Part shown: one piece after another, positions 7,490 to 23,745 of the stretch
Layout: every line of letters starts with the position of its first letter
Position numbering within the stretch: the first letter of the stretch is position 1
NCBI GenBank assembly: GCA_900317285.1
Contig: ONGA01000003.1
Location: forward strand, 48,197 to 112,196
Origin: an uncultured Bacteroidales bacterium
Lineage (GTDB): Bacteria; Bacteroidota; Bacteroidia; Bacteroidales; P3
Direction of reading: 5' to 3'
Length of the DNA: 64,000 nt
Program-made: the position numbers and the translations under genes
Notes under the pieces: model-generated
Database searches by the model: none
What the model was told of the DNA's origin: nothing
What the model saw: the letters and a program-made list of their open reading frames with translations, nothing else

Positions 7490-7530
7490 GCGGGGCCGGA
7501 ATGAAAGATTCCGGCCCCGCATTCTTTTTT
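7490..7530 (+). terminator. Rho-independent terminator after the S8 peptidase
   Basis: A perfect 13-bp GC-rich stem (GCGGGGCCGGAAT with its complement, 7490-7502 and 7508-7520) around a 5-base loop, followed by a T tract (7522-7530). It closes the mreC-to-peptidase run. Confidence 0.93.
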
Positions 7531-7561
7531 CTCCCGCCGCCCTCCCTCGTCGCCCCCTCGA

Positions 7562-7616
7562 CATAGAAGCGATATAGGAGAAGAGTAAGAGTTCAGTAAG
7601 AGTTGATAGGTATAAT
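7562..7616 (+). repeat. Diverged 11-bp iterated element (third copy)
   Basis: Five consecutive 11-bp units, the second being TATAGGAGAAG, match the unit consensus CATAGGAGAAG of the longer elements at 11.9 and 23.7 kb. It lies directly after a terminator, as does the 11.9 kb copy. The flank CAGTGCTTTGTAAATCT resembles the flank CAGTGTTTTGCATCTTT of the 11.9 kb copy. Nothing else is recognisable between 7617 and 7740. Confidence 0.6.
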
Positions 7617-7763
7617 CTCCCTAGAATCAGTGCTTTGTAAATCTGGAAAAATGCCTTGAAACCGTCAATCGCTCCATTTTTTGTTCAAATTTTGTATCAT
7701 TATGTAAATCAAACTGTTGTATCACAAAACACAATCCTTTTCGACGGAATGGATTTTTTTGCG

Positions 7764-7775: not shown

Positions 7776-9719
7776 ATGAAATGTAAAATCAACCTCTCCG
7801 ACTGTTTGACATTCCCTCCCGGCATCCCCCGTTGGCTCACGGCGGTCCTGGCTTTCCTCCTCGTGCTGCTTACCTATCCCGCCTTCGAACCCGACTTCGG
7901 CGTCGGTCTGGATTCCTCCTATGTGTGGGGACTTAACTACCTGTTCGACAACGACTACCCGACGCTGACCTCCCTCAGTCACCCCTACGGTCCCTTCGCC
8001 TGGCTCCGCCTCCCCGTGGTTGGCTGTGGCCATTATGCTTTCTTCCTCGTTTTCTTCTCATTGGCGAAATTTGCTTTCGCCTGGATGGTGCTCGAAATGT
8101 CTCGCCGTCGCCAGCAGCCGCTCCTCCTCGCCCTCGCCGCTCTTGTCCCAGCATGCCTCTTTGCCAACGTCGAAGTCCTCGTGGTCGCCGATGTGGCACT
8201 GTTGGTCGCCTCCGCCATCGAGCAGAAGAGTCTCTGGCGTTTCCTCCTGGCTGCCGCCCTCTCCCTCTTCGCCTTGAGCATCAAAATCTCCATCGGCACC
8301 TCCTCGTGCAGCATCCTCTTTGTTGGATGGCTGGTGATTGCCTTTTATCATAAGGATCTGAAATTCACTATTTCCACGGCAGCGTCCGTGCCACTTATGG
8401 CATTTGCTGTCGGTTTGGCGGTATGGCACACCTTCCCCGCGATGTGGAGCGCCTGTGTCGGCATGTTGCACCTTGTCGGCGGCTACACTGAAGCCGTCCT
8501 CATGCCCGAGCATCGCGGCTGGGCTCTAGTGCTCTTTCCCCTTTCCATAGTCGCTATGGCGTTGACTTTGAGGGGACGCTGGGCCCGTTGCCTCTTTCTG
8601 CTGCTTCTCATCCCGCTGTTCTCCTTTTGGAAATATGGCGTCACACGCGAGGACTTCTACCATTTCCGCCAGTTCCTTATGTTTGCCGTCTGCTTCATCG
8701 TGATGGTGGCGCTGGCGCAGGAACGCTTCCGCTGGCAACCTTGGCTGTTTGGCTTCGCGGCCTATATCCTCCTGACGGTCAACCTCTCGGCACTCAACAC
8801 TTCCGAGGTGCCCGTCATGACGGCAGGCCCCAAGAACTTGGTTACATGTGTGATAAACGGCAGAACCCTGGCCGACTCCAGTCAGGCCTACATCGACAAG
8901 TCCCTCTCCTCGCGCAAGCTCGACGGCAGGCTGTGTGAGATGATTGGCAACGCCACCGTCGACTGCTACCCATGGGAACATGTCTATGTCGCCGCCAACC
9001 ACCTCCGTTGGCAGCCCCACAGGAGCATCGAGCTCGCTTCTGGCAACTCGCTGTGGCTCAACCGCCAGTCGGCCATGAACTTTGGCCGTCAGCCCAGGGC
9101 TGTCGCCTTTGTGCTCCTGCACAGGGTGAACTACAGTGGCGAGGACGGTCTGCTTAGCCTCGACGGCCGTTACCTGCTCAACGACGAACCCGCCATCATC
9201 GACTCGATGCTGTGCAACTATTCCGTCGCCGACAGCGGGGGATGGTACGGTCTGCTGCTGCGGCATGGAGAGGGTCGCTATTCGGCCGACTCCGGTATTG
9301 TCGCAACGGCTGATATTCAATGGAATGAATGGGTGCCTGTGCCTCCGCATCCCGCTTCGACGGTTCTGCGTGCCGACCTTTTTTCCCGCACCTCCTTCGC
9401 CGGATGGCTGAAGGGAACGCTCTATAAGCCTGATATTTATTACGTTGACTACCGGATGCCCAATGGCGATATCTTCACCTACCGCTATTCACGCACGACG
9501 GCGGAGAATGGCCTCTGGCTGGGTCCCATGCTGGGTTCCTATGCCGCTCTGGCGGCATTTTTCGAGGGTAGGGCAGAGGCTCCCGCACCCACCGCCATCC
9601 GTTTCCGCACCGCCTCGATGAACGGCAGTGAGGCCCCCTCAAGGCTTCAAAAGCCCCGATTGACTATATGGTTCCGCAAAGCACTCACCCTGATGCAATT
9701 GACTCCTCCGACGGATTAA
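7776..9719 (+). CDS. Polytopic inner-membrane protein, GT-C glycosyltransferase-like, unrecognised
   Basis: A 647-residue protein whose first 370 residues hold about ten membrane segments. The first periplasmic loop (FEPDFGVGLDSSYVWGLNYL, then TSLSHPYGPFAWLRLP) carries an acidic residue just after the first segment, as GT-C fold glycosyltransferases and related sugar-lipid enzymes do. The second half (about 400-640) is soluble and contains repeated short strands and ADSS, HVYVAANHLRW and YYVDYRMPNGD. I cannot name the family. The ATG at 7776 is preferred; ATG 7749 and upstream frame would add residues over the promoter. The gene stands alone between a terminator and the urocanase gene, so context gives no function. 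Confidence 0.7.
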   Translation: MKCKINLSDCLTFPPGIPRWLTAVLAFLLVLLTYPAFEPDFGVGLDSSYVWGLNYLFDNDYPTLTSLSHPYGPFAWLRLPVVGCGHYAFFLVFFSLAKFAFAWMVLEMSRRRQQPLLLALAALVPACLFANVEVLVVADVALLVASAIEQKSLWRFLLAAALSLFALSIKISIGTSSCSILFVGWLVIAFYHKDLKFTISTAASVPLMAFAVGLAVWHTFPAMWSACVGMLHLVGGYTEAVLMPEHRGWALVLFPLSIVAMALTLRGRWARCLFLLLLIPLFSFWKYGVTREDFYHFRQFLMFAVCFIVMVALAQERFRWQPWLFGFAAYILLTVNLSALNTSEVPVMTAGPKNLVTCVINGRTLADSSQAYIDKSLSSRKLDGRLCEMIGNATVDCYPWEHVYVAANHLRWQPHRSIELASGNSLWLNRQSAMNFGRQPRAVAFVLLHRVNYSGEDGLLSLDGRYLLNDEPAIIDSMLCNYSVADSGGWYGLLLRHGEGRYSADSGIVATADIQWNEWVPVPPHPASTVLRADLFSRTSFAGWLKGTLYKPDIYYVDYRMPNGDIFTYRYSRTTAENGLWLGPMLGSYAALAAFFEGRAEAPAPTAIRFRTASMNGSEAPSRLQKPRLTIWFRKALTLMQLTPPTD

Positions 9720-11824: not shown

Positions 11825-11858
11825 AACAGGCGAGGCCATCCGGCCTCGCCTGTTTTTT
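11825..11858 (+). terminator. Rho-independent terminator of hutU
   Basis: A perfect 13-bp stem (AACAGGCGAGGCC, 11825-11837, pairing with 11842-11854), 4-base loop, then a T tract to 11857. Confidence 0.93.
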
Positions 11859-11890
11859 AGTAAAAATAACGGCTGGATTCCTTGCACCCC

Positions 11891-12040
11891 TGACATAGGA
11901 GCAACTAAGAAGCATCATATACGCATCATAGGAGAACCCAAGGAGAAGTATAGGAGAATGGTAGTACAGGCATAGGAGGCGTTTTTTCGGGATTTCGTCC
12001 CACTTTCTCCTATCCTTCATCCCAACCTTTCTCAGTACCA
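11891..12040 (+). repeat. 11-bp iterated intergenic element, copy 1
   Basis: After a TGA leader come eight consecutive units of exactly 11 bp (11894-11981; consensus CATAGGAGAAG, first unit CATAGGAGCAA, last CATAGGAGGCG). A unique tail of 42 bp (11982-12023) contains a GGGATTTCGTCCC mini-hairpin. The final unit and the tail are identical to copy 2 at 23.6 kb, 53 bases without a difference, and weaker similarity continues to about 12040. It fills most of the spacer between the hutU terminator and the SIMPL gene. The rest of the spacer (12041-12155) shows nothing beyond a possible promoter-like TTTTGCATCTTTG. Confidence 0.85.
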
Positions 12041-12155
12041 GTGTTTTGCATCTTTGTCCCTTTTGCCCGCCGAAAACAATATTTGAACCCCAAGGCAATA
12101 ATGTGCAAGAAACATCGTTAATGAAATACTCAATTGTGTAAAAAAACATTTTATC

Positions 12156-12863
12156 ATGAAAGGAAGTCAAATACCGTTCAAGAAGAACATGATCCAAGGC
12201 TCGGCCATCGTGCTGGCGGCCCTGGTGCTGGGTATCTTTATGGTCTGCACCGTGAAGACCTTCAAGTCGTACGACGACACCGTCAAGGTGCGTGGTCTCT
12301 GCGAGAAGGAGGTCCCCGCCGACCGTGTGGTGTGGCGCATCAGCTACAGCGAGAAGTCCAACGACCTCGCCGACCTGCGCAACACCATCCGCAAGAACAA
12401 CGACATCATTGTCAAGCAGCTGCGTGATGCAGGCTTCCCTGAGGAGGAAATCAAGGTGGGCAACGCCAGTTACGAGGACCGCTATTCGTGGGCCAACAAT
12501 CCCAATCAGATTCCCTTCCGCTACAATGCCAACCAGACCGTCACCGTCTTCACCAAGAATCTTGAACTGGTGCGCAAACTGCAGCAGACCCTTGAGACCG
12601 ACCTCGTCAACCAGAATATCCTGGCCAACACCTGGGCCGACTACCAGTACCTGGGTCTCAACGACATCAAGCCCGAGATGATTCGCGAAAGCCTCGAGAA
12701 TGCCCGCGTGGCAGCCGACGAGTTCGCCAACAACAGCCACAGCAAAATCGGCAAGATGCGTACCGCCTCGCAAGGCTATTTCGAAGTCGAGGACCTCGAC
12801 GAGAACACCCCGCAGGTGAAGAAGATCCGCGTGGTCACCACCGTGGAATACTACCTTAAATAA
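12156..12863 (+). CDS. SIMPL domain-containing protein (DUF541)
   Basis: A 235-residue protein with one N-terminal membrane segment (residues 17-35, SAIVLAALVLGIFMVCTV) and an exported SIMPL domain. Family features are the VKVRGLCEKEVPADRVVWRISY opening strand, the heptad-like middle helices (DLADLRNTIRKNNDIIVKQL), the regular GFPEEEIKV step and the closing VVTTVEYYLK. SIMPL proteins are periplasmic or anchored; the E. coli member YggE lowers oxidative stress, but the mechanism is unknown. The gene stands alone and ends in a strong hairpin. The start at 12156 is the ATG that leaves a short basic region before the membrane segment. Confidence 0.88.
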   Translation: MKGSQIPFKKNMIQGSAIVLAALVLGIFMVCTVKTFKSYDDTVKVRGLCEKEVPADRVVWRISYSEKSNDLADLRNTIRKNNDIIVKQLRDAGFPEEEIKVGNASYEDRYSWANNPNQIPFRYNANQTVTVFTKNLELVRKLQQTLETDLVNQNILANTWADYQYLGLNDIKPEMIRESLENARVAADEFANNSHSKIGKMRTASQGYFEVEDLDENTPQVKKIRVVTTVEYYLK

Positions 12864-22869: not shown

Positions 22870-23469
22870 TTAGAAGTCGAATTCCACGTTCACGGGTTCG
22901 GCAGCCTCTTCGGGGGCGGTGAAGTAGCCTTTCTTCTCGAAGCCCAGCATGCCTGCGATGAGGCTGGCGGGGAAGCGGCGCAGCTTGGTGTTGTAGGCCT
23001 GGACGGCTTCGTTGAATTTGCCGCGCTCGACGGTGATGCGGTTCTCGGTGCCCTCAAGCTGGGTCTGCAGGTCGCGGAAGCCCTGGGTGGCAGTGAGTTC
23101 GGGGTAGCGCTCGACGGTGACCTTGATGGTGTTGGCGAGGGCCTTGGAGAGGTTGTCCTGGGCTTTCTGGTAGGCGCGGACCTGTTCTTCGGTGAGCTGC
23201 GAGGGGTCCACCTGGGTCTGCTGCACGCCGGCGCGGGCGTTGGTGACCTCGGTGAGGACGCCCTTCTCGTAGTTGGCGGCACCTTTGACGGTGTTGACGA
23301 GCTGCGGGATGAGATCCATGCGGCGTTTGTAGACGTTCTCGACCTGGCTCCAGGCCTTGGCAACGTTTTCTTCGTTGGTTACGAGGCGGTTGTTGACGCT
23401 GACGCCCCAGAGGAAGATGAGGGCCACGACGCCCACGATGGAGAGGATGGTGATGGTTCCTTTTTTCAT
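22870..23469 (-). CDS. lemA: LemA family protein
   Basis: 199 residues: an N-terminal membrane helix (ITILSIVGVVALIFLWGV), then the all-helical LemA domain with the signature NRLVTNEENVAKAWSQVENVYKRRMDLIPQLVNTVKG, followed by YEKGVLTEVTNARAG, YPELTATQGFRDLQTQLEGTENRI and FNEAVQAYNTKLRRFP. The last 25 residues are acidic. It is a membrane-anchored protein, usually paired with TPM proteins; molecular role unknown. It precedes the TPM gene by about 37 bases on the same strand. No clear promoter is visible in the 120 bases upstream, which are G-rich and T-rich without other features. Confidence 0.92.
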   Translation of the reverse strand: MKKGTITILSIVGVVALIFLWGVSVNNRLVTNEENVAKAWSQVENVYKRRMDLIPQLVNTVKGAANYEKGVLTEVTNARAGVQQTQVDPSQLTEEQVRAYQKAQDNLSKALANTIKVTVERYPELTATQGFRDLQTQLEGTENRITVERGKFNEAVQAYNTKLRRFPASLIAGMLGFEKKGYFTAPEEAAEPVNVEFDF

Positions 23470-23595: not shown

Positions 23596-23745
23596 TGGTA
23601 ATGAGAATGGATGGGATGAAGGATAGGAGAAAGTGGGACGAAATCCCGAAAAAACGCCTCCTATGCTTGTACTACCATTTTCCTATGGTTCTCCTTAGCT
23701 TCTCCTATACCGCTTATTAGTTGCTCCTATGATGCTCCTATGTCA
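23596..23745 (-). repeat. 11-bp iterated intergenic element, copy 2 (inverted relative to copy 1)
   Basis: On the minus strand, a TGA leader is followed by eight 11-bp units (consensus CATAGGAGAAG) and the same 42-bp tail as copy 1; the last unit plus tail (23613-23665) is identical over 53 bases. The unit order differs at the start, where two full CATAGGAG units stand next to each other, but spacing is exactly 11 throughout. Located in the 457-bp spacer between lemA and the FISUMP-type gene. The remaining spacer (23470-23595) is G/T-rich with no recognised feature. Confidence 0.85.

Follow-up and report, generated by a model that had tools for sequence, protein, structure and literature searches.

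Family A, an 11-bp tandem array, belongs to a genus-wide class of intergenic elements that may offer one protein site per helical turn

The nearest described relative of the elements reported here is the BrickBuilt MITE of Porphyromonas gingivalis, a single family with 23-nt tandem units known from P. gingivalis and P. gulae, for which 19 copies in one strain, terminal inverted repeats, 4-bp target duplications and promoter activity are reported (PMC4596501). Like BrickBuilt (PMC4596501), our elements occur in Bacteroidales, are dispersed and intergenic, set tandem direct repeats between a leader and a tail, gain or lose whole units (between strains there, between sister species here) and have a limited host range. 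Unlike BrickBuilt (PMC4596501), they have a unit of 11 bp rather than 23 nt, several families per genome and units that differ between species, and we saw by eye neither the terminal inverted repeats nor the target duplications that BrickBuilt possesses. Among the papers that full-text searches of a PubMed Central library listed, none described intergenic arrays of 11-bp units from Bacteroidales. As a mechanism, the closest analog would be ParR-parC, in which the parC repeats bound by ParR measure 11 bp in R1, 10 bp in pB171 and 20 bp in pSK41 (PMC9426499). The resemblance lies in direct repeats at steps of about one or two turns, a position upstream of a promoter or flanking it and a system-specific sequence (PMC9426499), whereas parC is a plasmid locus beside parM and parR and the present arrays form 85 chromosomal loci (families A–C) beside unrelated genes. 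No parM or parR was found among ten window proteins and ten proteins encoded downstream of family A (Pfam), or by eye among the other downstream proteins; by analogy, the 21-bp arrays of sister genera described below recall the two-turn parC variants. REPs and REPINs with their RAYTs likewise comprise many short intergenic repeats, often palindromic, and REPs are not known to have an 11-bp tandem step. PhoB/OmpR-type operators are head-to-tail 11-bp half-sites upstream of promoters, few per site and attached to the genes of a regulon; the present arrays, unlike them, reach about 15 units and adjoin unrelated genes. Dispersed intergenic repeats are already known as a kind, and what is possibly new is one with an 11-bp unit and perhaps a mechanism of its own.

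The window, by which we mean the whole 64,000-nucleotide stretch of DNA analysed, from an uncultured gut bacterium, contains three such elements. Two of them are present where an earlier note on this DNA had placed them, at 11891-12040 (copy 1) and, on the minus strand, at 23596-23745 (copy 2); taking as edges the points outside which conservation across copies falls (~11888 and ~12024), copy 1 spans 11888..12024 on the plus strand, and copy 2 spans 23612..23745 on the minus strand, in the gap between divergent genes upstream of lemA. Copy 1 is made up of a leader CCCTGA, eight 11-bp units at 11894-11981 (in 11-base steps, CATAGGAGCAA, CTAAGAAGCAT, CATATACGCAT, CATAGGAGAAC, CCAAGGAGAAG, TATAGGAGAAT, GGTAGTACAGG and CATAGGAGGCG) and a tail ending in TTCATCCCA. 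The description of the units as eight and exact is right for their spacing, since both copies advance in eight exact 11-bp steps after the TGA, but not for their sequence, which in units such as CATATACGCAT and GGTAGTACAGG follows the consensus only in part. The identity between the last units and tails of the two copies is also real and extends over 55 bases (11970-12024 in copy 1) instead of 53. In copy 1, CATAGGAG (11971-11978) can pair with CTCCTATC (12007-12014) in a 3′ hairpin (11971..12014, plus strand). The third element (copy 3; 7560..7609, plus strand; exact-pattern locus G000:C23:55781-55803) reads GACATAGAAGC GATATAGGAGA AGAGTAAGAGT TCAGTAAGAGT TGATAG; it keeps the 11-bp step, as had been noticed, but is not a decayed copy 1 and belongs to a separate family C with GTAAGAGTTNAGTAAGAGTTGAT. 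It may be followed by a degenerate 3′ anchor (TAGAATCAGTGCTTTGTAAATC; 7622..7643, plus strand; compare TAGTATCAGNNNGTTACAAATC in relatives), which was aligned by eye and is not matched by the strict anchor pattern. Terminator-like hairpins with T-runs do precede two of the copies as judged by eye, one at 11826..11858 (plus strand) belonging to the urocanase gene upstream of copy 1, and one at 7490..7530 (plus strand) 5′ of copy 3. The genes downstream of copies 1 and 2 code respectively for a SIMPL (DUF541) protein (12156..12863, plus strand; Pfam PF04402) and a LemA family protein (22870..23469, minus strand; Pfam PF04011); the one downstream of copy 3 (7776..9719, plus strand; ATG start picked by eye) has no Pfam match. 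Roughly 70 bases separate the end of copy 1 from a CAATAA ... CGTTA string (12096..12120, plus strand) that is the putative promoter of the SIMPL gene, its type being conjectural. By eye, ACAATAA followed after about a dozen bases by CGTT(A) recurs near the starts of several SIMPL and lemA orthologs (e.g., L156-L158, L250-L253 and L268), and this string may be a promoter for an alternative (ECF-like) sigma factor.

Copy 1 has 42 matches in its own genome (2,069,581 bases in 28 contigs), of which 41 have E ≤ 4e-24; we regard the last (16 bases, E 6.3) as a chance match. Because two of the 41 adjoin each other, they make up 40 loci, which we call family A. Many copies with sharp ends had been named as something that would support a repeat family, and conservation across the copies does have an edge at both ends, dropping upstream of CCCCGACATAGG and about ten bases past CTCCTATCC (20 common-tail copies); relatives, with the best few matches per genome considered, yielded none. 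Specifically, when a 140-base family A query was run against the taxonomic family, it matched none of 189 genomes other than its own, with the best four or fewer matches per genome scored and with 4 of the 41 own-genome copies recovered, so that family A elsewhere could be missed. The window's genome has 129 instances of the pattern GACATAGGA and 7 of its reversed form, far beyond chance. The order of units is fixed, most columns being invariant or nearly so in an ungapped alignment of 33 heads; the eight of 41 copies outside it are cut, shortened or duplicated, among them L014, which is without exactly one 11-bp unit, and L022, with a 12-base deletion, and one locus (L021/L026) carries a partial duplication. 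Copies other than the 20 with the common tail have different or cut tails, and by eye several of these pair CTCCTAT with the last ATAGGAG, a CTCCTAT-like arm being kept in several copies despite a different loop sequence; the stem scores of 39 family A copies range from 5 to 11. Four copies lie at contig ends (C4, C15, C21 and C23 of G000), so the repeat probably breaks the assembly. Two further 11-bp families of the same genome share a unit, GACATAGGAG, near their start: family B, whose 94 overlapping matches were counted as 33 loci, and family C, with 12 exact-pattern loci including copy 3 of the window. A fourth form, D, is present in nine of 40 fetched loci. Carriage by phage or plasmid was rejected because copy 1 has no blastn match in phage or plasmid collections and a 31-base tail string has no exact match in viral contigs.

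Family A proved to be one family of a genus-wide class of 11-bp intergenic elements. A protein search gave 79 named loci; in L156-L216 the SIMPL identity is 58-95%, and these loci come from Bacteroidales/Bacteroidetes metagenome-assembled genomes, of ruminant origin wherever a source is given (RUG names are presumably those of rumen genomes). The trinucleotide TAG, repeated five times at 11-bp steps, was found in 53 of 118 other genomes of the genus versus 1 of 70 of other genera (55 of 189 in total, the window's own genome included), with a reversed control that is itself unclean, being frequent in, for example, G113, G034 and G087, and GAT-step arrays (as in L153) are 11-bp arrays too. The unit sequence is species-specific (e.g., TAGGATATGCT, TAGGAGTTGAG, TAGAATTACCC and TAGAAGTACCG), and the 11-bp step is kept across the genus. 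The sole genome outside the genus with TAG-step matches, G132, has 19, all on one strand. A sequence-blind scan of the intergenic DNA predicted at 80 same-genus or close loci (109 kb) recovered 45 arrays at lag 11, 32 at lag 22 and at most 7 at any other lag from 8 to 30, some of them orthologs and so not all independent, as 16 pairs of stretches from close species share long identical pieces. No lag-11 array turned up in 726 kb of CDS or in any of five shuffles, and lag 21 is nearly absent in the genus (1 array). The strict scan flags no copy within the window itself, so these counts understate degenerate arrays; low-complexity arrays were dropped here and from the counts given below for SIMPL regions, stops and polarity, hairpins, G020, curvature, tetramers, GTATCAG and pooled placement. 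In the relative G020 (400 kb), 25 arrays lie in 37 kb of intergenic DNA versus 1 in 363 kb of CDS, and the longest array noted, of up to about 15 units, is on its contig C3. Loci of other genera gave no lag-11 array in 16 kb (L217-L234), and a further set (L116-L135) gave one in 37 kb, with 21 bp the leading step (7 arrays). Sister genera of the same taxonomic family carry intergenic tandem arrays of 21 or 22 bp, about two turns (L126, L130, L116, L117 and L133), for example CATTATAACCTGTAATAATTT and close variants repeated about eight times. Across the sampled genomes, then, the arrays form families of similar copies that are nearly absent from predicted genes and may differ by a whole unit.

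The arrays lie mostly in gaps that hold the 5′ end of a gene, judged with genes from a home-made codon-usage caller and, for context counts, with a called gene required on both sides of the gap. The 41 family A matches comprise 19 tandem and co-directional with the downstream gene, 1 tandem and opposed, 14 divergent, 1 convergent and 6 of unknown context. Tandem polarity is accordingly 19:1 by matches and 18:1 by loci; in the 40 fetched loci it is 8:1 for family B and 4:0 for each of C and D, and for families A–D together 35 are co-directional and 2 opposed (binomial p 1e-8, one A locus being counted twice). A downstream gene was called for 39 family A cases, and in 21 of them the motif TAnnTTTG, which we take to be the Bacteroidales promoter motif, stands between the element and that gene, versus 0/39 for the reversed motif and 3/39 for the other strand; where the motif is seen in the window's genome, the array lies upstream of it. 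The distance from element to promoter varies in family A from 13 to 284 bp (excluding L013, whose called gene is 1.2 kb away), unlike that of a classical activator. The genes downstream of family A are a mixed housekeeping set and not a regulon: Pfam scans of ten of their products found, among others, glycerol-3-phosphate dehydrogenase, an S1-domain protein, an acetokinase-family kinase, phosphofructokinase, a phosphoglucomutase family member, MraZ, RsfS and a TetR regulator, and the remaining proteins were judged by eye. In the relatives, pooled with stretch L140 (part of L283-L284) counted once, 31 arrays occupy divergent, 28 tandem and 4 convergent gaps (n=63), or 1.00, 0.37 and 0.22 per kb, an enrichment in divergent gaps (p 3e-5) and a depletion in convergent ones (p 0.04). 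In G020, divergent gaps hold 17 arrays, tandem gaps 6 and convergent gaps 2, the gaps with an array being 15/29, 6/111 and 2/18, respectively. The relatives show no common polarity (TAG 32 sense versus 42 antisense in 23 tandem-context arrays), so the polarity seen in the window's genome is not general. We also considered and rejected a translation-stop array, with a stop codon every 11 bp closing all frames: in the same 23 arrays there are 64 sense stops versus 69.0 expected and 75 antisense stops versus 65.9 expected.

The element is an array of 11-bp units, about a fifth of the time with an inverted hairpin partner and in one type with a 3′ anchor, GTATCAGNNNGTTACAAA. The anchor matches exactly at nine places, spread over 7 of 189 genomes, each a member of this genus, and the reversed control matches at four, in other genera. 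Eight of the nine lie, by eye, just 3′ of an 11-bp array, with the units ACTAGGTCAAT, GAGTAGGAGTT, GTAAGAGGAGA, GGTAGTTGATA and TCGGAGTTGAG being unrelated to one another; in L305 (G115) the anchor stands upstream of a gene without an array and is possibly a remnant. The downstream gene is co-directional with the anchor in 7 of 9 matches. In two copies of G087 the similarity stops right after the anchor and the flanks diverge, so the anchor is probably the 3′ end of the element. The string GTATCAG was found within 70 bases of 6/76 arrays versus 3/2738 control windows. A fixed-length spelling of the anchor (TATCAGTGGTTACAAAT) had no match in 152 flanks, and the spelling with a free 3-base gap was set after viewing the flanks and then tested over the taxonomic family. 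The exact anchor pattern does not match the window's genome, and family A lacks the anchor. We dropped a wider Bacteroidales motif, ATCAGTGNTTTNCAA, suggested in part by copy 3: it matches 32 of 119 genomes of the order, never more than three times in any of them, and does not match the window's genome, with no sign of a repeat family.

Within the 11-bp step certain tetramers recur. In 43 arrays (G020 excluded) those spaced at 11 bp were TAGG in 11, CGGA in 9, GGAG in 13 and GTTG in 11, versus 4.1, 2.3, 5.9 and 3.6 in column-shuffled arrays, most of these tetramers having been picked after inspecting largely overlapping arrays; CTAG, the strongest with G020 included, is unenriched without it (2 versus 1.3 expected). 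Because of the exact helical-turn step, the core tetramers recurring at that step, the near-absence from genes and the placement upstream of promoters, we tentatively favor, with confidence a little short of even, the view that these spreading elements are platforms offering a protein one site per helical turn; the spread and the geometry are observed, and the protein is conjectured from them. An oligomeric, sequence-specific DNA-binding protein would sit once per turn along one face of the array, and upstream of promoters such a platform might affect transcription or the local organization of the DNA; protein and unit sequence would change together, and copies would spread by transposition-like insertion or gene conversion. 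Against a platform weigh the mixed downstream genes, the lack of a common polarity in relatives, the variable promoter distance, the empty orthologous sites described next, and the anchor, which is missing from family A and rare in its exact form. Of the three readings that the earlier note left open, a dispersed repeat is supported, a binding platform is compatible with what we found, and a structured RNA is unsupported for copies 1 and 2.

Comparison of orthologous sites bears on the gain and loss of arrays. The copy 2 spacer with both flanks, searched in 118 genomes of the genus (E 1e-20, best three matches per genome), matched 88 genomes, its own included, mostly via lemA; among the matches listed, the element part otherwise matched only two own-genome copies. 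Of 29 lemA loci, 28 were readable (L278 is too near a contig end); with the low-complexity filter off, nine of these have a lag-11 array within 420 bp upstream, its units unlike family A by eye and one of the nine (L261, 317 bp away) intergenic by assumption, and 19 have none. Upstream regions of SIMPL carry arrays in four relatives (L163, L189, L190 and L215). Enrichment of arrays at a single orthologous gene, SIMPL or lemA, is not claimed as selection. Arrays are mostly absent from orthologous sites, so no single site is essential. A presence/absence comparison of spacers, as had been suggested, could be made once, for an array of relatives and not for family A: among nine of the 29 lemA loci, chosen by eye for an alignable divergent neighbor, L275 and L276 have inserts of ~148 and ~137 bases between alignable flanks and seven orthologous spacers have no insert. 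These two spacers differ by an 11-base gap inside the array and are otherwise near-identical, and L299 and L302 differ by 11 bases in the array and by a 2-base gap outside it. The variable unit number that the earlier note had named as support for a repeat family is seen as one-unit differences at two loci of one pair of sister species (G020/G059), but family A itself is nearly fixed at eight units.

Such turnover is what would be expected of selfish or neutral dispersed repeats (MITE-like, REPIN-like or trapped minisatellites in the BrickBuilt manner) that are tolerated upstream of promoters and owe the 11-bp step to unit copying or slippage, a reading to which we give a considerable, if minority, chance. 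It accommodates the many near-identical copies in the window's genome and the families of similar arrays in G020, the restriction of family A to one genome among the best few matches from 189 others, the insert present or absent between aligned flanks, the one-unit length changes in G020/G059, the inverted arms in 10/45 arrays versus 1/287 control windows (stem score ≥ 16; two of the ten being the arms of one hairpin) and the common 3′ end with diverging flanks in G087. One would, however, expect a neutral repeat to turn up in convergent gaps as well, and these hold few arrays (4/63); neither target-site duplications nor terminal inverted repeats are evident by eye in the flanks of family A or in the one filled/empty alignment. 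Moreover, plain slippage leaves unexplained why the step is 11 bp rather than 10 or 12 across unrelated units. A REP/RAYT origin is unsupported, as six array-rich genomes with 13 to 37 TAG-step matches have no match to the Y1 transposase of REP type (PF01797, E 0.001): G024, G040 and G092, which are 97% complete, and G054, G082 and G104, which are only 82-88% complete. Y1 matches occur in 40 of 59 genomes of the genus, including one in the window's own. The platform and the selfish reading need not conflict: unit turnover and mixed downstream genes fit a selfish repeat too, and a dispersing element may carry a protein platform.

That phased repeats act through DNA shape or topology, bending DNA or extruding cruciforms and so insulating neighbors or tuning supercoiling without any sequence-specific protein, appears improbable. 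It would suit the concentration in divergent gaps (15/29 in G020), the steps of 11 bp here and 21 bp in sister genera, close to one and two turns, and the hairpins of about a fifth of the arrays. The modeled curvature of the arrays also exceeds that of other intergenic windows (49.8 versus 31.8 in a wedge model, with 2 of 71 arrays, both from L140, counted twice); yet any 11-bp repeat is curved by construction, and the real units rank at a mean of just 0.59 ± 0.03 against column-permuted units, where 0.5 is expected, a weak trend on which curvature was dismissed as a selected trait. Nor does shape alone predict the enriched core tetramers, and the near-absence of lag 21 in the genus is at odds with a 10.5-bp phasing that would permit it. 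A structured RNA, meaning that the array gives a transcript, either a small RNA or a leader, with the 11 bp per turn of an A-form helix, is very improbable: long hairpins in some relatives (38/39 positions paired in L178) and the agreement of family A polarity with the downstream gene would fit it, but neither copy 1 nor copy 2 folds more stably than its shuffled versions (z -0.84 and -0.63), the window has no Rfam match at gathering score (sub-threshold matches of microRNA models to long hairpins being taken as chance), the promoter-like motif lies between array and gene in 21/39 family A cases, and one would not expect transcription of an array that lies between divergent promoters.

Returning to the platform, we consider a stronger version of it on the unlikely side, namely that geometry and not sequence is what is conserved genus-wide, with the arrays and a putative array-reading protein co-evolving so fast that units become species-specific, the 11-bp step being retained throughout and the 3′ anchor in one type. 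Were it true, bacteria would have, across a whole chromosome, a counterpart to the nucleoprotein arrays of the parC kind. It is unusual for spacing to be conserved when sequence is not, and this points to a protein that gauges helical turns as it reads the arrays; in compact bacterial genomes, arrays upstream of genes at roughly one every 16 kb (25 in the 400 kb of G020) call for explanation. Should a protein be found, it would amount to a new binding system acting chromosome-wide, in a gut lineage that has received little study; failing that, the arrays would be a class of repeats that evolve fast but keep their unit length fixed. Shorter simple repeats also occur between genes in the genus. 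L137 (G008, same genus) has an intergenic 6-bp step (lags 6, 12, 18 and 24), with no lag-11 window among its top lags. In 10 of the 41 copies of family A (L002, L003, L006, L009 and L011 among them; two of the 41 being without upstream sequence), a 7-bp array, NTAAACC (TTAAACCGTAAACC...), is seen by eye to lie immediately 5′ of the element; it is a second simple intergenic repeat, and similar runs are present in the relatives L165, L203 and L214.
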